Shown piece after piece: positions 5,730 to 46,700 of a stretch of 64,000 bases of DNA. Position 1 is the stretch's first letter. Each line of letters starts with the position of its first letter. Origin of the DNA: Pagrus major (Eukaryota; Chordata; Actinopteri; Spariformes; Sparidae); the NCBI RefSeq assembly GCF_040436345.1, contig NC_133234.1, forward strand, positions 12,213,446 to 12,277,445, read 5' to 3'. The position numbers were made by a program, and so were the translations under genes. The notes beneath the pieces are model-generated. The model did not search any database. It was given only the letters and a program-made list of their open reading frames with translations, and was not told the DNA's origin.

Positions 5730-6212
5730 ATAGCTTTATTTCAGCATAGATAAAAAAAACAGGAAAGAAGTTTCACTACAAATTAAGCTGATATCTAAAG
5801 TGCTTTTACATCTAAATACTAAACTAGAAACTATGCAATATGCAATACCGTTTCTTAAGTGCAAAAATATAACAGAACAAGATGTTGGTAAGGCAAATAC
5901 ATTTAACAAAAAAAATAACAAATCCGGAGACTATTCTCCATCTCTATACGAATAATGCTACATGATTTGATATGATATGATACAACATAAGCAAAATAGT
6001 TTTTCTGGGAAAGAGTGAATGTGCTCGCCCTTGTCCCATCACTGAAAGCAGATTTTCATGGATCAAGCACTCAATCTCCTTATGTGTGTACGAAGAGGCA
6101 TAGAAAAGCTTTTTTTTTTTTTGAGAAATAGCTGTGTACATGTGAACAGGTCCTTAGTCTACTTCTTTTCTTCCACTATCTCATATTCCTCATCCTTCCC
6201 CACTAATTCATA
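5730..6212 (-). other. 3' UTR of the Fc-receptor-like gene
   Basis: Downstream (leftward) of the stop at 6213-6215 the minus strand has no further coding signal. TTTATT at 5735-5740 on the plus strand reads AATAAA on the minus strand and is a plausible poly(A) signal, giving a 3' UTR of roughly 0.48 kb. Confidence 0.55.
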
Positions 6213-6716
6213 TCACTCACCTCCTGCTCCCCCCTTTGCTCCCAGGGTGTGATATACTCCCTCCTTCATTCCCTCTTTCCTCAGTGCTTCATATCCCCCT
6301 GCTCCTCCACCTGCCCCTTCCCCTCCCAGGGTGTGATATTCTCCCCCCTTCATTCCCTCTTTCTTCAGTGCTTCATATCCCCCTGCTCCTCCTGCTGCCC
6401 CCTCCTCTCCCAGGGTATTGTATACTCCCTCCTTCATTCCCTCTTTTTTCAGTGCTTCATATCCCCCTGCTCCTCCTGCTGCCCCCTCCTCTCCCAGGGT
6501 ATTGTATACTCCCTCCTTCATTCCCTCTTTCCTCAGTGCTTCATATCCCCCTGCTCCTCCTGCTGCCCCCTCCTCTCCCAGGGTATTGTATACGCCCTCC
6601 TTCATTCCCTCTTTCCTCAGTGCTTCATATCCCCCTGCTCCTCCTGCTGCCCCTGCCTCTCCCAGGGTGTGGTATACCCCCTCTTTCATCTCCTCTTTCT
6701 TCAGCGGTTCATATTC
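6213..6716 (-). repeat. 84-bp coding minisatellite encoding ITAM-like units
   Basis: Unit starts (GGGTRTKG on the plus strand) fall at 6245, 6329, 6413, 6497, 6581 and 6665, an exact 84-bp period over about six copies. On the minus strand each unit encodes 28 residues: a YEAL tyrosine motif, nine residues, a YNTL or YHTL motif, then a Gly/Ala/Glu linker (GEEGAAGGAGG). Copies in the middle are nearly identical. The period is a multiple of three, so copy-number changes keep the frame. It also keeps other frames open on both strands. Confidence 0.95.
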
Positions 6717-9700
6717 ACCCTTCCTCTCTCCACCCGTTGCTTCTGGGTGAAGGGTGTCGTACTCGCCGCCCCTTTGGGCACCATGTAGCACCTCGTATTT
6801 GTCATCACCTTTGTCTCGTGTCCTCAGTGCCACATCCTCGTATATTGGTCCTGAAGGAGAAAAATGAGTGCTATGAATTACCTTCAGTGTGCTTACGGAC
6901 AGTGAAAAAAGTAGTAGTTACTCACCTGTGGCATTTCTCTTCTTGTACCATAGATAAGCTGCAAGTGCAATGACTGCACCTAGAATCACCAGCATGACGA
7001 ACAAAACCACTACAATGATTTTGATGGGAGGTTTATCTGAAACAGAGAGGAAACATAATCCCTGTGACCATGTGATATGTAGTTTATATTAACTGAATTC
7101 ATTTTAGCAAGTTAGGCAGTTTTAGGCAGTTTATTATAGAGGTCTGGCCATTAGCACTTCGATACATGAATTTTCAAAGCAACATTTGACATCTAACAGA
7201 GCTCCAACAGGCCAAATAATATGTAGTCAAACTGAAAACACAAAAGTGATGAAGCAGATGCAGTCTGATGTCCGATGACTTTTAGTGTCCAGGATGGGTG
7301 AAGATCCAAATACCAGTGGATCCTACAATTCCCAGAATGCAACTCTTAAGTGTTATTTGTTAGACCCTGTCTTTCAAACCCCATTTCCCCTTGTCTGTAA
7401 GAAATTGTGACTCAAACAGTGTGTCCAGGTGCCAGATGCATACAGCTGTGTAGAGTCACAAGTAAAACAGTGTGAACTAACAAAGATGGAAATTTGTATA
7501 CGCATTCTTTTCATTAGATCAATAAAGATGTTTGTATGCTTGATTCTGTTTTATAAATCACTGTCAATAGTGTGCATGTGCGCATATGCATGAGCTTTAT
7601 TTCACTCCCATCATCCATAAACGGATGTAGAAATGGCCTGATTTGCATATTGATACTTATGCCCATTCCACACTCATTTGACCTGAAGAAAAGCAAAGAA
7701 AAGTACAAAACTGAAAAAGTACAACTGATTGTGTTTCATCAGTCATCAGTTTCAACAATATCAAAGTCCATTAGCAGGAACTTACAAACGTAACTGTTGC
7801 TGAGAAAAGACATCCCTGTCTTCCACACAGCTCTGCAGGCATAAGTACCGCTCTTCGTTGGCATCATGAACCCTTGGCTGGAATCTAGAAGGTGTGATGG
7901 CTGACCATAATCATCATTATCGTTGTAGTACCAATGATAGGAAGAAGCACTGGGACAAAGTGGACAAGAACACGACAAGCCAGCATTTCCAGAAAGAACC
8001 GCCTTCATAGAAGCCACTGAAAAAGGACAAATGAGGAGACTTTTAAATTTGTCTGCTGGAGAGAAGAATGCATGTGTAAAGCATACAGTATCACACAAAA
8101 GAGGGCACTAAAAGTCAGCAGTCACTGCACTCAAAGTTTTGGATATGCATACCTTGGACAAACACCTCTTGATTATCAGAGGCCAAATGGTACGGGGGCC
8201 CTCCAGTGCGATCCTTGTATGTGAAGGTGGCGTCACACTTATATCTTCCCTTTGCAGATTCTGTCACAGTTGGGATAGTATAAGTAGGAACGATACTTTC
8301 CTGAATTATTGTATCATTTTTGTAGAAAGTTGCGCGGGTGATCCGATCTGTGCCCCAAGCAAGGCACCTCAGAGTCAGACTATCCCCAGCTACAGCAGGC
8401 AGATGATTCATTTCCAGCAATACCTCCTTGTCTGAAAGAAGATGAAGATTGTATTTGTTTTATCTCCATAATTTAAATGAATAAAAATAAAACCAGCTGG
8501 TGAACGTAGTGGAGCATTTAACAGCTAAAGAGCCAGATATTTCCCTCAGGAGTTGGCGGAGAACAAAAACGGAGCTAGAAGTAGGGCTGGGCGATATGGC
8601 CTTAAAATGATATTGCCATGTTTTTAGGCTATATGACAATACACAATATGTATTTATATTTTTATTTATATATTTTGAAATCTCCTCAAAACATCAAAAC
8701 AATATTTTTGAACAAATACCTTGATATTGATAAAAATATAAACATATATTAATCACAGAAAAGAAGCATTACAGTTTTTGCCTAATGCTTAAACACTAAA
8801 AGTGGTTGCTATGCCCAAAGCATCACAACCTCTAACTTTGGTGACCATGCCCTAAACAAAAGCACCAACCCTGCAAACATAATATATGCTTTGCACTGTG
8901 TTTGAAATTCTCCAACACACTTCTTGCAAAACACTACACACTGTTTTTTACATAAGACACATTGTTCAAAAAGGAAATCTCATACAATCATTGGGAAAAC
9001 ACATCTATTTAAAATACAAAACACAACTACAATTGGAAAAGCACACAGACTCACACACATGAAAACATTTAAAATCTAATTGTAGACCAATCAGTCTAAG
9101 CCATAGCACTACAAATACACCTGATGTGAGCTCAGCTCCTTTGTGCCAACTTTGGAAACATGTAGGCAGAAAGAGGAAGAGGGAGAGTAAGAGCAGTAGC
9201 AGGATGAGGAAGAGGACGAAGAAGGGGAGCAGGCAACAGAAGGAGACAAATATCTGATGACATGAGGGCCACTTTGGTGGACCATGTAATAAATCATGGC
9301 CTTACAATGAGGGAGGCTGGGCAGAGAGTCCAGCCAAACCTAAGTCGCTACTCAGTTGCCTCAATTATTACAACTTTCAGACTGGAAAACAGGCATGTTT
9401 TGAAGTTTCCACACTAAACTGTACCAAAGAAATTACAGTATTGCACATTGTTCAAACACACAGTACAATACATTGCTGTATTACTGTAGGTCTATTGGTC
9501 TAAAGTACAAAATGTATGATGTTTCATTTTCTACAGAACTGCCAGACGACCTGCACGGGGTGGAAGGCAGATTATGTTCAGTGATGAACAGGAGGTGGCC
9601 ATAGTTAACATTGTTTTAGCAAATAACGAAATCCGGCTTTGTGAATTGAAAGAGCAGGTCATCGCAGATCAAATAACCTTCGCTGACATCAACACTGTCA

Positions 9701-12700
9701 GCATATCTACGCTCTCCCGCATCCTTAAAAAGCACAACATTTCACTGAAGCAGCTGTATAGAGTTCCATTCGAGAGGAACAGTGCGAGAGTCAAAGACCT
9801 CCGTCATGACTATGTGCAAGTAACACCCCAGCCCCCCCCCCTTTTTTTTTTACTTTTGCAAAAACCTGAAAAACAAAAAAAATCTGAAGCGTTTCCATTT
9901 TGTTTTCATGTGTCTAGATCAACTGTAGTGGATCAATCTTTCACAAAAAAAAAATCTGTATGAGTCTTTTAAAGTCAAAAACCATCCAAAGTACTGAATA
10001 CAGCTGTGTTTTGCATAAAGCACATCTGTGTGTTGTTGCTGCTAGGAAAGAGTAATTCAAAGGTGCATGTGTTTAACGTTTTGATGCTAAAAACAGTTTT
10101 GAAATGGGATTGTTAGGTTTTGTTTCAAGAGTTTCATTTTGCCATATAAGTTAGGAGTTTATCTTCATGTGCTGTGTCTTACTCAGCCTGTGTGTTAAGT
10201 TATGACACAGTGAGCCAAAGTCTGCTACATGTGTGTAAGCATTCGGCAAAAACTGTAAGATAAGAGCAGGCCTACCTGAGGTCCAGACTGTGATTTGGTT
10301 ACTTCTAAGTTTTAGAGCACTGTCAGTACACCAGAAAATGGTCTCAGGAACTTCCAGCCTCTTGGGTTGAAAGTCCAGGCTCACAGTGTCATGCTTCTTC
10401 TTCAACACAATCTTCTTCTGCTGCTCTCCCCTGTAGACCCAGCAATTCCATTCCCCCAGACCGTCGTCGTTGTGGAGCTGCAGGACAACTGAACTTCCAT
10501 TCTTCATCACTGGGTGGCCTGTCTTGATGGTGAGTGAGGCTCTGGGAATGTATTCTGAATGGTAAAAAGATAAATGTTACTATTATTTGTATGTAGTGTA
10601 TTTCCCTTTACACTTTTGGGAGTTTAAACTCCAATATACTCATGTTAATGTGGTACACTTACTATGGACGTCGATTTGGCGCTTCTCACTTCTTTCCCCA
10701 TTGCTCTCACACTCATAAAAGCCTGCGTGGTTGGGGGTAGCACATGCTACCCTCCAGGTTTTTTTCGTCACCGTTTGCTCATTGCCGTTGAAATACCATT
10801 TCACTGTACTCCCACTTGCACTGTTGTCACAGCTCAGATAAAATAAGTCCCCAGAGAAAATCTCTTTTAATTCGGGTGACATAGAAACTAAGGAGGCAGG
10901 AGACAAAGGAAAAGAAGACAAACAGTCAATAAGCTCTTATGTAGACATTCTGACACCTGGTACAATTTATGTCATCGCAAGAAACTACAAAAGGCTGTTG
11001 TAACTTAGTACGTTTACTCAAGTACTGTACTAAAATATAAATTTGAGTTACTTTTTCATTCAACTTTATACTTGTACTCCACTACATTTGTCTGACAGCT
11101 TTAGTTACTATTTACTTTTCAGAATACATTTTGCAGAATTCCTTTCCAGTGAAAACCACGTATCTCCAAACTTGGTAATGTGAATTTTTCTGATGAACTG
11201 ATGGTTGGAGTGTTCCTTTATGAGTTGTGAAAGTCATACTTCTTGAGCTAAATTAAAGCTCCTATTTGTAGGAGAGTTGATTTTTGAGTCTCATTCCTAA
11301 CTCGTGAAATGCTAACACTTTGGGTTGGTATGTCGAGTCAGTTACCAACCCAAAGCGTCAGTATTTGACGAGTTGGGAATGAGACTCAAAGATCAACCAA
11401 TTTACAAAGTTAAGATTAACGGGTCACAAAGCTGAAACAGGCCGTTTTATGATTACTTTGAAGACAGTGATGCTACAAACATAAGATGATCTTATGAATA
11501 TAATGCATTGCTATAGATTAAATTACCCAACATTATTTAAAGCAGTTAAATTCACAACCACAAACAACTACAGCAGTAAAATGCATATTTACTGCAGTAA
11601 TAATTATCCCAAAACTTCATATATAATAATAAAACATTGACAAGGACCATTTTACTGCACAATGGGCACTTTTACTTTTGATGCTAAAATATACATTTAC
11701 TTCAGTAAGGTTTCTCAATGAAGTGCTTTTACTTGTAATGGAGTATTTTCATAGTGTTGTATTAGTACTTTTAATAAAGTAAGGGTGCTTCTTCCACCAC
11801 TGCTGACAACTTAAATTTGGAAGATGGAGGGCTGACTGCTTTTGCAAACTTTTTAGCACTTATTACCTTGTGGTATTTGCTGACATCTCACCAGGAGCAC
11901 GGACACTGAAACAAAAATTTAAAAAATGTTATTCTTCAATAAACAAACAGTCTTTCATGACACAGTCTACATTAGTCTGTACCAGATCAGGTCGAATATC
12001 AAAATGGTGATTCGCAAAATCTACTTCTTTTTGTGCGACATCACAGATCTGTGAAAACATATTGAACTTTTAATTGTAGTTTAGAAATTAAATAATTAAT
12101 ATATTCAAAAATATAAGTTTGGTCTCAAACAGTGTAACCAGAGCTGTGATGTTGTTTTTTCCTATCTATTTTTTGTTAATGAAGTTAAATTGTCTGTAGG
12201 TGGTGCTATTTCATTTTGTCTCTTCAGCCACAGGGCCTAGTACTGCTCATGGAAGCTATACAGTTGTTTTTATTCAACCTGAAATTGACAGCATAATTAC
12301 ATTGCTTTACTGTCCCACGATGCTTCTGTACAAAGGAACTCATAATAAGTAAAAAAAATAATAGTTTATGTGGTGCACCTGATTGAATAGAATAAGAATA
12401 AGTGATCACTAATAGAAAAAAGTTCACCACTTCCTCTTCTTTTCTAGTCTTTTGCCAAATGAGGGTTTTCTAATGTTCCCCATATTTTTTTTCTTTATTT
12501 CTGCCTATAATTTTTTTTACTGCATATCAATATACTGTAGAATCATAAAACACTGACTGTTATTTGTTTGGAAGCTCAAGGATGGTCTCTGTATATCTAT
12601 GGTGTACAACTGACTTTAGACATTAGTCTGAACATTACATATCTTTTTAAAGTTTTAAATCATATCAGATCTGTAGTATTTTGATTAATTACTGGATTAA

Positions 12701-14100
12701 GGAATTAATCAGAATGTTTGCACAGGGTTTTAAGCCCACTATATCGTCTTTTATTCCATTGAACCAAAGTTACATAATAACACCAAATATTAATTATGTT
12801 TGAAATAGTCAATTGAAACAGTATTCATACAGTATGTATTATACTCCACATCACTTTTGTTTGTTTTGGATATGTTCGGCTATAAAAGTCTTTTCCTGCT
12901 TTGTGCGTGTGTATATCTGCGGACAGTATGCGTTTCCAAAATTAATTGTTTTACAATTCACTTTATAATGCAGGAAATTCTATGTATACATACAAATACA
13001 CATACACATATACATACACATATACAAATACATATAACTGGCACAAAAAAATAATATAATAATGTTATAAGATAAATATCTGAGCTCTTTTTTGGTATTT
13101 ATATGTGTGGTTGTTTTATTAAAAAAAAAAATTCAATAAATGTATTAGCGTTTGAAAGATTATACAACATTTATAAAAGTGCAGAGAACATTTTAAAAAC
13201 ATTAAATGTCTCATTTGCATGCCAATTTTTTTTTCTGGCATGTGTTTATCTTTTTCAGAGGTACTGAATTTCTTTAATTTTGGTTGCGCCTGTTTGAATG
13301 TCTGTGTGCATGTTTGTTATGTTCAATTTTAAACAAAATGTCTGCAAAGACTCTTTCAACAACTCTTAATGTAAAATCTAATATTTTATTATTTTATTTA
13401 TATATTTTTTTCAGTTTGGATATTCAACATTTTCCCTAATACAGATGCAATATATGATTATATTTTTTAAATCATAGATACATTTTTAAATAAAAATAAA
13501 TAATTTAACTGAATTGTTAGCGTAAGCATCCAGAGAATAATACAGTAAATACAGTATACTTGCAGTATACAAAAGCCATTGTCTCCATGTATGGGCATCT
13601 GTGTATGCGCACACATAATGAACTTTTAATTGTTTTGCAATATAAAAAGTTAATTGAAATTTTTGCTTTAATTTTTAATTCATTAAAATTACATTTTTCA
13701 ACCAATCGGCGGACATAATGTTGACTTTTAGATTTAGGATGAAAAAGTTAAGCCAGGACATTTTCAGCCACCTGCAAGAAAAATTGCAAATTCATTGTAT
13801 TTAAAATTATGTCTTTTTTTTAGATTCATATTTATTTTATTTATGATACATGTTTAAATTGTCTCACATTTAAATCATAATGTATAAGTTTTCTGACTAT
13901 AATACATAAAACATCTGTGTAAGATCTCTCTTAAATCTCAATATATTTCTGCTAAAAAACATGACATAAATATTATAATACTCACAAAAATGAAAAGCTT
14001 ACAATCCTAAAACCACCTTTAACCCCAGCAGCAATCCTGGTTCATGTTTCTTTGGATCTATCTTACCTGCCAGGAGCAGCAGATGATTTCCACCCCTCAT
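6213..14100 (-). CDS. Fc-receptor-like Ig receptor with an expanded multi-ITAM-like tail
   Basis: Eight coding exons on the minus strand: 14100-14067, 11905-11867, 10887-10663, 10554-10276, 8431-8153, 8016-7786, 7036-6926 and 6850-6213. All junctions are phase 1, as is usual for Ig superfamily genes, and total 611 residues. The first two exons encode a leucine-rich signal peptide (start MRGGNHLLLL); the 39-nt second exon is the mini signal exon typical of FcR/FCRL genes. Four Ig-like domains follow, each with a Cys pair (for example FYLSCDN...FYECES in D1 and LTLRCLAW...GRYKCDATF in D3). D3, with its LPAVAGDSLTLRC stretch, is the most FcR-like. One membrane helix (IKIIVVVLFVMLVILGAVI) has no charged residue and ends in YLWYKKRN. 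The 212-residue tail has 14 YxxL motifs plus YEDV. An activating, ITAM-type receptor on leukocytes is inferred from the sequence; the ligand is unknown. Likely relatives are teleost FCRL or Fc-gamma-receptor-like proteins. Confidence 0.88.
8585..8760. repeat. Degenerate interspersed repeat (GGGCTGGGCGATATGGC type)
   Basis: The sequence starting GGGCTGGGCGATATGG followed by AT-rich, ATAT-containing DNA resembles one end of a teleost DNA-transposon family with a similar start to the element at 15760. I see no matching right end. It lies in an intron of the Ig receptor gene. Confidence 0.4.
8771..10100 (+). mobile_element. IS630/Tc1-like DNA transposon relic with transposase N-terminus
   Basis: Within an intron of the Ig receptor gene, on the opposite strand, two blocks read as the DNA-binding N-terminus of an IS630-type transposase of teleost genomes. 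Block 9262-about 9393 begins MRATLVDHVINHGLTMREAG (helix-turn-helix) and ends at LEN. Block about 9537-9829 continues with MFSDEQEVAIVNIVLANNEI and ends LKQLYRVPFERNSARVKDLR plus HDYVQ, followed by GTAACA. The two join in frame if an intervening intron is spliced (acceptor TTTTCTACAG at about 9536). The DDE catalytic part is absent. ACAGTTTTTGCC at 8771 and the inverted TAAAAACAGT near 10090 may be remains of terminal repeats, so the ends are approximate. Upstream of the first block there is Arg-rich coding-like sequence with stops. Confidence 0.65.
10991..11802. mobile_element. hAT-type MITE (CAGTGGTGG family), copy 1
   Basis: The left end reads GTAACTTAGTACGTTTACTC and the right end reads CTTCTTCCACCACTG, the typical ends of an abundant teleost hAT-derived MITE whose body is full of TACTTTTACTT motifs. 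The extreme left terminus is degraded. It sits in the intron between the signal exon and the first Ig exon of the receptor gene. A long palindrome (11276-11397) lies inside it. A related copy is at 39740-40440. Confidence 0.65.
11276..11397. repeat. Long imperfect palindrome with 55-nt arms
   Basis: Arm 11276-11330 and arm 11343-11397 are inverted copies separated by a 12-nt spacer. Shared blocks include TTTGAGTCTCATTCC / GGAATGAGACTCAAA, CTCGT / ACGAG and CTTTGGGTTGGTA / TACCAACCCAAAG. It is nested in the hAT-type MITE and has no open frame. Confidence 0.9.
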
Positions 14101-43700: not shown

Positions 43701-46700
43701 GGGTGCTGGTTCAGGGCGGCGCTCATTTGGATTTTAGAAACAGAGACGGTTTGACAGCGCTGCACAAAGCTGTTCGGGCTCACAATCATGCTGGGCTGCT
43801 GGTAAGGACTTTGAATTAAAATCACATGCTTGCAGACACACTCAAGTAGGACGAAATGATTATAAAGGTATTACAAGGACACACATACTCACATTAACAT
43901 GTTATATAATAATGTAGAAGTGAATAAATGACCATTGTAAATGCTGCATCAAATGTGGGTGGTCATGATATTTAAAGATGGTGAGAAGTGTTTCACAATG
44001 CCTTAGATACTGAGTTAGTTTCAAGTTGTGACTGCTGCTTCTTTTCTTTGAACAATGTTCTTGCGATAGGGAACAGAGGCCTTTTTGGAGCTTTGGTACC
44101 TGTCTCATGTTGCTTTCAAAGACCCCATATCAAAGCCCTGTTTACAGGTCTACATATACAGACAGAATATGTACACCCACATGCTTTTCTTTTGTCTTAC
44201 CAGGTTCTCCTGTCCCTCGGAGCATCTCCAAACTACAAAGACCGCTGTGGCCTGACCCCGCTGTACCACACTGTACTGACAGGGGGCGACACTACCTGCT
44301 GCGAGACCTTGCTGTACTACAGGGCGTGGCTGGGGACGAGGGACGAGAACGGCTGGGACGAGTCCCATCAGGTATCAATGGACAGTTTAAGATTTTTTAT
44401 AATGAACTCCTCAAATACAACTCTGTCCGTCTATCCATGGTTTCCTTCCATATTTTTACGTTAAAGGATAAGTTCCCACAAAAGTGAAAGTGCAGTCATT
44501 ATCTACTCACCGCCATGCAGATGGAAAGTCTGGTGAAGTTTCATAGTCCGCAAAACATTCCTGGAGCTTCACAAACAAACATAGTTGCAATATTCTTCTG
44601 AACAACTGAAGTTGAAAAATAAAAAAACAAATGAAAAGAACATAAAATGGCTCCATACAGCTCGTCTGGCATAATCCAAGTCTCTGGAATCCCAGAGATG
44701 CCAAATTGATTGGAAGAGACATTATTTACACATTCAATTATTTACACATTGTTTGGTATTGAAATTACCAAACAAGACCCTATTTACTTCAGTTGTTTAG
44801 GAGAATACTGCAATGCTTTTCTTGCTGTGAAGCTACAATAATGTTTTGTGGACTACAAAGCTTCACCCACCTTTCCATCGGCATGTGGGTGAGCAGATAA
44901 TGACTAAATTTTCATTTATGGGTGAAATTATCCTTTAAGCATCTCTGGTCTTTGACTCTCATTGTGTATACTTAAGCAATGCACCGACGTCTCCTGTCTT
45001 ATCTCTGTGGTTGATGTCATGTACCATCGCCCTCAGCCTCTCTCAGCATTTTCTCACTCCTCCTTCTCCTCTGTGCCTTCCTCACTCGTCTCCTCATTCT
45101 CTCTCCTTCCTCCCCTCCTTCTCTCTTTCCATAGCACAGGGATGAAGAGGAGTTTGGAATGGAAGAAATACATAAGGTACCCTTCATCCTCCCATCTCAT
45201 CATCCCAATGGCCTTTCAGAGGCAAAGGCGCTGAGGATCGTGATTTGATACAAAATGTAGATAAACTGAAGTGACCACACAGTTTCTTTAAACCTGCTCT
45301 CATCTTAAGCTGAGACCAGTTCAGAAAGAGCTTTGGATATTACCTCTTTCTTACTGTAGATATGGGTGCATTGCCTACATTATGTCTCTGTGACATTCTG
45401 GTAAATTTGCGTTTGTGCTGCGAGCTGGTTGTCATGGTATTTTATTTTGGTTTTGCCGTGCTCTGTGTTTTCTTTCTTTACTTTGTACATATCTTGTGAT
45501 ATTTTAGTCCCCGCAGAAAAATATGAGGAAACCTCACAGGCTGCTGAAAGCTTGTTGCTGTTGTCTTAATGTTTTTTGTTGCCTTTCTTTTCCACAATGG
45601 TGCAATGTAATTGGCTCTGACCTGTTTTTCTGTAAGAATAATTATGGATCTAAATGTGGATGTAAGACATATTATTTCCCTTTCTTTCTCTCTGAATCTG
45701 CCCTGCAATATCTTTCATCCTCTCCAATTTTCTATTGTACTGGAACAGTCCTGTGTGAAATCTCCCTCTTCACTTTAAATTGTCTCTGACAATTTGTGGA
45801 TATTTCTTTCACTCTCTTGACATTGAAAGGCGTGCCAGAATGGCTTCGCCCAGCACTTGGAGCATCTGCTGTTTTATGGGGCAGACACCGCTTCTCAAAA
45901 TGCCTCAGGGAACACTGCACTTCACATTTCTGCCCTGTACAACAAGGCAAGTATGGAAACAGATCCCTCACATGAAACTATTATTACCATAATTATTATG
46001 CTGTTTTTAGTCTAAAGGTGTTAACCGATCACTCTCCCTCTTTGAATGATCAGGAAAGCTGTGTCCGCGTTCTTCTGTACAGGGGAGCAAATAAGGAGGC
46101 AAAGAACAAACATGGTCAGACCCCTTTTCAGGTAAATGTTTAAAGATATGATATGTAACATTTCTGCATTTAAACATCTATCACATCTCAAACTTTGGTT
46201 TATATTTTGCTGAGTTGTGTACTTGCATAGAAAAATCTGTCATTTTATTTACGGTAACAGTGCGTTGCAGTTGCTGTAACTTTCCGGGAGAGAGTCAGAG
46301 AGTGAGAAATGAAGTTGACAAACGTGACTAAACATAATGTGAACAAAACTTTTAAACATTACAGCGCCCGTAAGCATTTCTGCCTGAGATTTTCATCATT
46401 CAGTGGTGGTTGATACAATGAAAACAACAACTACTTGTCTATACTACTAGTTATATTGCATTTGCAAAGAGAAAAAGGAGACAACACAATAAAACAAGAA
46501 ATAGATGTAATTACAATAGCTAGAACAATTGGATCTCATTTTGTTTTTTGTGTTTGCAGCTAGCTATAATGTCTGGTCACTTTGAACTCGGGGAAATCAT
46601 CAAAAACCACAAAGACTCTGATATAGGTAAGCTTTCATGCCAGACTGTCTCAATCGGTTCCCAACATCTGCTTTTCTTTGAATCGATCATGTATTTGCCC

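Follow-up and report, generated by a model that had tools for sequence, protein, structure and literature searches.

Organization of the gene and its surroundings

The window, a 64,000-nucleotide stretch of Pagrus major DNA, carries on its minus strand a gene whose eight exons are spliced to encode a protein of 611 amino acids. The spliced model and the predicted P. major protein P0001 are 100% identical over the full length, and every intron is of the GT-AG type and in phase 1. Exon 1 (14067..14100) supplies the start codon and the first half of the signal peptide and ends at a GT donor in phase 1, and the 39-bp exon 2 (11867..11905; AG/GT, phase 1) supplies the second part. The four Ig domains follow with one phase-1 exon each: D1, which is FcR-like with a profile match to the first domain of FcγRI and FcεRI, in exon 3 (10663..10887); D2, placed by the splice model and confident in the predicted structure, in exon 4 (10276..10554); D3, placed by the splice model and by a phmmer match to FcγRIIa and superposed together with D2, in exon 5 (8153..8431); and D4, placed by the splice model and the predicted structure, in exon 6 (7786..8016). 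Exon 7 (6926..7036) encodes the transmembrane helix (residues 367-396). Exon 8 (6213..6850) is in frame with the seven upstream exons and specifies the entire cytoplasmic tail with seven ITAM-type tyrosine pairs, terminating in a TGA stop codon at 6215-6213. A split signal peptide and a single phase-1 exon for each Ig domain characterize FCRL genes, and the P. major gene has the same layout. A search of the 786-Mb P. major genome with the tail produced one match (1.2e-122) and one other at an E value of 4.5, a single-copy count that is based on the tail sequence alone.

The neighboring genes in the window are on the plus strand and include an exon of a vesicular glutamate transporter (VGLUT; 486-713) and a SHANK ankyrin exon (43985-44461). 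Human SLC17A7 and SHANK1 both reside on 19q13, which is the LRC/SIGLEC side and not the FCRL side. The P. major locus is flanked by VGLUT and SHANK, whereas the human FCRL5 and FcR genes are located on chromosome 1 according to PMC5742104. A plus-strand open frame of 147 amino acids (9520-9960) in the intron between the D2 and D3 exons resembles the N-terminal part of a transposase, and a Pfam search with this frame gave no match at E up to 0.01. Antisense to the tail, a plus-strand frame of 271 amino acids (6158-6973) is open across the whole repeat described below and probably is a by-product of repeat composition. Elsewhere, contig C1 of genome G000 harbors a very large cluster of Ig-receptor genes at ~4.62-5.46 Mb, with ~114 (counted by eye) of the best 150 of 1544 Ig_2 matches; C20 holds none of these best 150.

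The ectodomain was nearest to FCRL5 and the classical Fc receptors in both profile and structure comparisons. The phmmer match to FcγRIIa, the profile match of D1 and structural superposition each identified an FcR-type Ig ectodomain, the predicted D2-D3 module superposing on FcγRIIa with an rmsd of 3.0 over 156 residues. When the pdb was searched with Foldseek, the top row was 8grx_B (APOE4 receptor) followed by FcγRI, with LILRB3, Sidekick and others scoring alike and with TM-scores by query length of <0.2. An earlier note on this DNA had described the transmembrane helix as uncharged, and its 20-residue core indeed contains no charge. The charged transmembrane residue typical of adaptor-dependent Fc receptors is absent from the P. 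major receptor.

Tyrosine pairs of the cytoplasmic tail

The tail includes 15 tyrosines, 14 of which are in YxxL/I motifs and one in YEDV, a count that agrees with that of the earlier note when made in the tail exon (6850-6213). The membrane-proximal YEDV motif (Y403; 6831..6842) corresponds in many relatives to YED[V/M/L/I]. The seven pairs proposed by the earlier note also were recovered: one YEVL-x8-YDTL (pair 1; 6750..6797), one YEPL-x9-YHTL (pair 2; 6663..6713) and five of the form YEAL-x9-Y[N/H]TL, comprising YEAL-x9-YNTL in pairs 3 (6579..6629), 4 (6495..6545) and 5 (6411..6461) and YEAL-x9-YHTL in pairs 6 (6327..6377) and 7 (6243..6293). Pairs 2-7 are built by an 84-bp (28-residue) tandem repeat at 6220..6714 of 5.9 copies with 91% matches, which was the only array detected by TRF and is within exon 8. 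Both tyrosines and both +3 leucines are kept in all six array units in P. major, and nonsynonymous differences exceeded synonymous differences in 14 of the 15 comparisons between these units. The linkers between the array units are 11 residues in length and consist chiefly of Gly, Ala and Glu, and Cys, Ser, Phe and Trp are absent from the 212 tail residues that were counted. The abundance of motifs is apparent even when the array is represented about once: the first 75 residues of the tail contain four YxxL/I motifs compared to an average of 0.47 over 100,000 shuffled sequences (p = 0.0002).

The residue at position -2 of the tyrosines had been given as Gly, Asp or Lys. Gly (13 tyrosines) and Asp (one) were borne out, whereas the other residue is a single Pro, with Lys instead located at -1. 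The P. major tail contains no ITIM, ITSM, YxN or YxxM motif, the count of the ITIM consensus [I/V/L/S]xYxx[L/I/V] being zero.

The pairing register is ambiguous in P. major alone: the 11-12 residues between the pairs also fit x6-12 spacing, and an alternative register that begins at YEDV likewise yields seven pairs. The register of the earlier note is favored because the array pairs hold a distance of 13 residues between tyrosines throughout the family, whereas the distance between pairs varies. An in-frame stretch behind the stop codon (YELVGKDEEYEIVEEKK; 6159..6212, minus strand) is similar to the C-terminal end of relatives in Micropterus, Anabas and Betta and, judged by this resemblance, seems to be the remnant of a final tyrosine pair. 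A motif similar to YELVGKDEEYEIVEEKK also closes the Acanthopagrus protein. A consensus-like splice donor, GGAG/GTGAGT (6224-6213, minus strand), overlaps the stop codon.

Strict ITAM spacing is x6-8, which is observed in only one of the seven P. major pairs, the other six being x9; the pairs therefore are termed ITAM-type, denoting units that would work like ITAMs. All seven fit the form Yxx[L/I]-x6-12-Yxx[L/I] given in PMC3528668. The Pfam ITAM profile (PF02189) did not match the P. major protein at E up to 10 and had no match anywhere in the P. major genome, where controls equally were unmatched so that the scan is uninformative, and the profile matched two of 48 family members (alignment A3, E up to 1) with a best value of 8.6e-7. 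All seven pairs are contained within exon 8 with no motif split over two exons, and the first tyrosine of the array units has Ala, not an acidic residue, at -3. The x9 spacing, the Pfam result, the single exon, the Ala at -3 and the liability of the repeat to slippage weaken the proposition that each pair is a classical ITAM. They leave untouched the conservation of paired YxxL units, which the protein comparisons below establish for the tyrosines and +3 hydrophobic residues.

Conservation of the tail in other fishes

Teleost proteins with an FCRL-like ectodomain and repeated YxxL tails, a search for which had been proposed in the earlier note, were found. A homologue search in which the best 7993 candidates by shared words were scored yielded at least 99 proteins including P0001, among which are isoforms or several models of one species, and a second search with the best 7994 candidates added two proteins. 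Fourteen of the 99 were without a clear transmembrane segment and tail of 40 residues and were dropped, and 85 tails were analyzed. Public names within the family include sialoadhesin, CD22, titin, obscurin-like, LILRB2 and DDX3X helicase, and the Chanos record is named zgc:154125.

The multi-pair tail is real and conserved. Across the 85 tails 763 of 796 tyrosines are in Yxx[LIV], and Leu, Ile or Val occupies the +3 position of 763 of the 794 tyrosines that possess a +3 residue (0.961 vs. a background of 0.117). At -2 these residues accompany only four of the 796 tyrosines (0.005). When 78 membrane-proximal tails were aligned by column, seven odd or truncated tails of the 85 being left out, four tyrosine columns were invariant and a fifth was Tyr in 76 of 77 tails; two +3 Leu columns were nearly as constant (77/78 and 74/76). 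These seven columns head the conservation ranking of well-filled tail columns. Lower in the ranking is the third tyrosine's +3 Leu (71/78, with Ile in seven), and the 22 most conserved columns do not include the +3 positions that belong to YEDV and the fifth tyrosine. The 678 intervals between neighboring YxxΦ tyrosines were most commonly 13 residues (297), followed by 15 (205) and 17 (76). An interval of 13 is nearly always within an array pair, and those of 15 and 17 chiefly separate one pair from the next or YEDV from pair 1. The distance between the tyrosines of pair 1 is variable across the family, mostly 12 to 15. The transmembrane core is uncharged in 84 of the 85 proteins, the charge in the remaining protein being near one end of the core. 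The ITIM consensus occurred 13 times in 13 of the 85 tails and YxxV 111 times in 75 of the 85, with Val at +3 common in some lineages.

Pair number and evolution of the array

With x6-12 spacing, the number of pairs per chain in the 85 tails ranged from one to 11 when Leu, Ile or Val was admitted at +3 and from zero to 10 with Leu or Ile only. Four or more pairs were present in 55 and 40 of the 85 tails, respectively, or in 54 and 40 of 77 when models with frame-shifted-looking ends were omitted. With strict x6-8 spacing no tail of the 85 has four or more pairs. The highest count was in Micropterus dolomieu (11 pairs, or 10 with Leu or Ile only) and the Acanthopagrus tail has six. Among Epinephelus species E. 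coioides has six pairs, E. lanceolatus and E. moara have four and E. fuscoguttatus has three, all with repeat-type ends. Frame-shifted-looking tail ends, defined by a pattern picked after the ends were inspected, were noted in predicted proteins P0030, P0032, P0036, P0057, P0059, P0060, P0065 and P0073; they look like array indels that are either real or derived from the assembly or gene models.

In a survey of repeat periods that covered 91 tails (the 85 and later hits), the best period was 28 residues in 47 tails, and 53 possessed at least two copies of their best period. The unit is 26 residues in Centroberyx and 40 in Cynoglossus, with two YxxL motifs kept, and in Melanotaenia a 17-residue unit has a single tyrosine and so is not an ITAM unit. 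As read from the tail sequences, the two-tyrosine unit that underwent amplification differs between lineages. Outgroups from the ectodomain search comprised Dallia, in which two x9 pairs are intact but an array is lacking, and Chanos with a degenerate tail and zero pairs. Close neighbors in the ectodomain tree (81 sequences, shown without support values) differ in pair number. These patterns are likely to reflect an old two-pair tail that was amplified repeatedly in spiny-rayed fishes. Homogenization of the units within each species was considered and rejected: of 297 units, 67 had their best match within their own protein and 191 in another protein, with 39 ties. With 191 of 297 units best matched elsewhere, the arrays are not simply homogenized per species.

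Proposed function and alternative explanations

The organization of the protein points, with reasonable though far from complete confidence, to an Fc-receptor-like protein that would be activating and self-contained, with a Syk-family kinase recruited to its tail. The suggestions of the earlier note that an activating role is more likely than an inhibitory one and that an adaptor is not needed are supported in this respect by sequence evidence. Counting against this reading are the x9 spacing of six pairs, the lack of a Pfam ITAM match in P. major and the excess of nonsynonymous over synonymous differences between the array units. The protein would be a type I receptor, probably expressed on leukocytes, that presents four FcR/FCRL5-type Ig domains to the exterior, crosses the membrane by an uncharged helix and carries a disordered tail with Gly/Ala-rich linkers. 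A multivalent ligand, for which immunoglobulin or an immune complex is the candidate, may cluster the receptor so that Src-family kinases phosphorylate the pairs, and one chain might then dock several Syk-family kinases in the absence of the FcRγ adaptor.

The effect of many ITAMs on one chain has been addressed with an engineered receptor that promoted engulfment more strongly with four ITAMs than when only one ITAM of the chain was intact, although tandem ITAMs on one chain could not substitute for the clustering of several receptors (PMC8175083). By analogy, many ITAMs may strengthen the signal while clustering still is needed. Models for the multiple ITAMs of the TCR invoke amplification, ligand discrimination and context-dependent activation or inhibition (PMC12058738, PMC4428620). 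A more tentative extension is that the array evolves as a gain control set by its length, the minisatellite adding and removing kinase-docking units so that signaling strength differs between species. If this were true, alleles within a species perhaps also would differ in signaling strength, and the range would extend up to the 10 (Leu or Ile) or 11 (Val allowed) pairs on one chain, like the whole TCR complex.

The alternative that survives best, albeit as an unlikely one, is near-neutral growth of the minisatellite in which function resides in one or two pairs near the membrane and further copies accrue by slippage free of cost. The 91% similarity of the units in DNA, the variation among Epinephelus congeners (6/4/4/3 pairs with repeat-type ends), the two intact pairs without an array in Dallia and the eight predicted relatives with frame-shifted-looking ends, a pattern chosen post hoc, are as expected from this process. 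In contrast, Tyr and the +3 Leu, Ile or Val are kept in 763 of 796 cases while the linkers vary, four or more pairs persist in 54 (Val allowed) or 40 (Leu or Ile) of the 77 tails without frame-shifted-looking ends, and lineages amplified different two-tyrosine units.

YxxL also conforms to the YxxΦ sorting motif, and a receptor that scavenges immune complexes might use the sites chiefly for uptake by AP-2 and clathrin. This explanation is improbable. Fourteen of the 15 tyrosines in the P. major tail are in YxxL/I and are compatible with YxxΦ, but a single YxxΦ motif is enough for uptake and, to our knowledge, AP-2 does not require the 13-residue pairing of tyrosines. An inhibitory or damping receptor in which many low-occupancy sites recruit SHP-1 or sequester kinase, as an inhibitory ITAM, is marginally less probable still: inhibitory actions of ITAMs have been described (PMC4810170, PMC12058738) and YxxV is widespread (111 in 75 of 85 tails), whereas the ITIM consensus is absent from P. 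major and sparse in the family (13 in 13 of 85 tails) and Leu, Ile or Val is at -2 of just four of 796 tyrosines. Skipping or replacement of the tail exon in most transcripts, or a repeat count that is an assembly artefact, would accommodate predicted relatives P0087, P0088, P0091, P0093 and P0103 that end right after the transmembrane segment and the consensus-like donor at the tail end, but is very improbable given that the public P. major record also is 611 amino acids in length (it may share the assembly), that Acanthopagrus has six pairs and that a repeat with at least two copies is present in 53 of 91 tails.

Comparison with known ITAM systems

The activating, self-contained receptor proposed here differs from mammalian FCRL5, FcγRI, FcγRIIa and FcεRIα in that the P. 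major protein bears no transmembrane charge for docking of FcRγ. The FcR-like receptors of lower vertebrates include Xenopus XFL and catfish LITRs. The XFL tails contain one to three YxxL/I/V motifs (PMC2413239), and the stimulatory catfish LITR 2.6b pairs with ITAM adaptors such as FcRγ (PMC2413239, PMC4810170). In contrast to P. major, the accounts of XFL and LITR in these sources describe no array (PMC2413239, PMC4810170).

The fish thrombocyte collagen receptor G6fL is, like the P. major protein, a teleost receptor with four Ig domains, and it signals through an ITAM in its own tail, as is proposed for the P. major protein. The single ITAM of G6fL signals, both tyrosines being needed as judged by mutation, and its tyrosines are 12 residues apart (PMC3528668). 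However, G6fL combines a single ITAM with a Grb2 YxN site, and its ITAM is split over two exons (PMC3528668). The engineered DNA-CAR-4xγ also is similar in combining four ITAM tails and short Gly/Ser linkers in a single-pass chain (PMC8175083), but is synthetic, whereas the P. major array is natural with a 9-residue pair spacing.

Understanding of Fc receptor function in farmed fish is described as being at a very early stage (PMC9699129), and the P. major receptor is a candidate receptor for antibody or immune complexes in these fishes. A 2025 review regards a large number of ITAMs as singular to the TCR, with other receptors having one, two or at most three, and finds no clear consensus on the role of ITAM multiplicity (PMC12058738). 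A partial search of the open-licence literature did not find a single recognition chain with as many ITAM-type pairs as the P. major protein. Of the 10 ITAMs in the TCR complex, the zeta subunits contribute six (PMC4428620). Several tandem ITAMs are shared by CD3ζ and the P. major tail, but CD3ζ needs partner chains to recognize ligand, whereas the P. major chain brings recognition and seven pairs together. If the pairs signal, the fish family with one to 11 ITAM-type pairs per chain exceeds the three of the review and constitutes a natural series in which signal can be measured against ITAM number in one scaffold.
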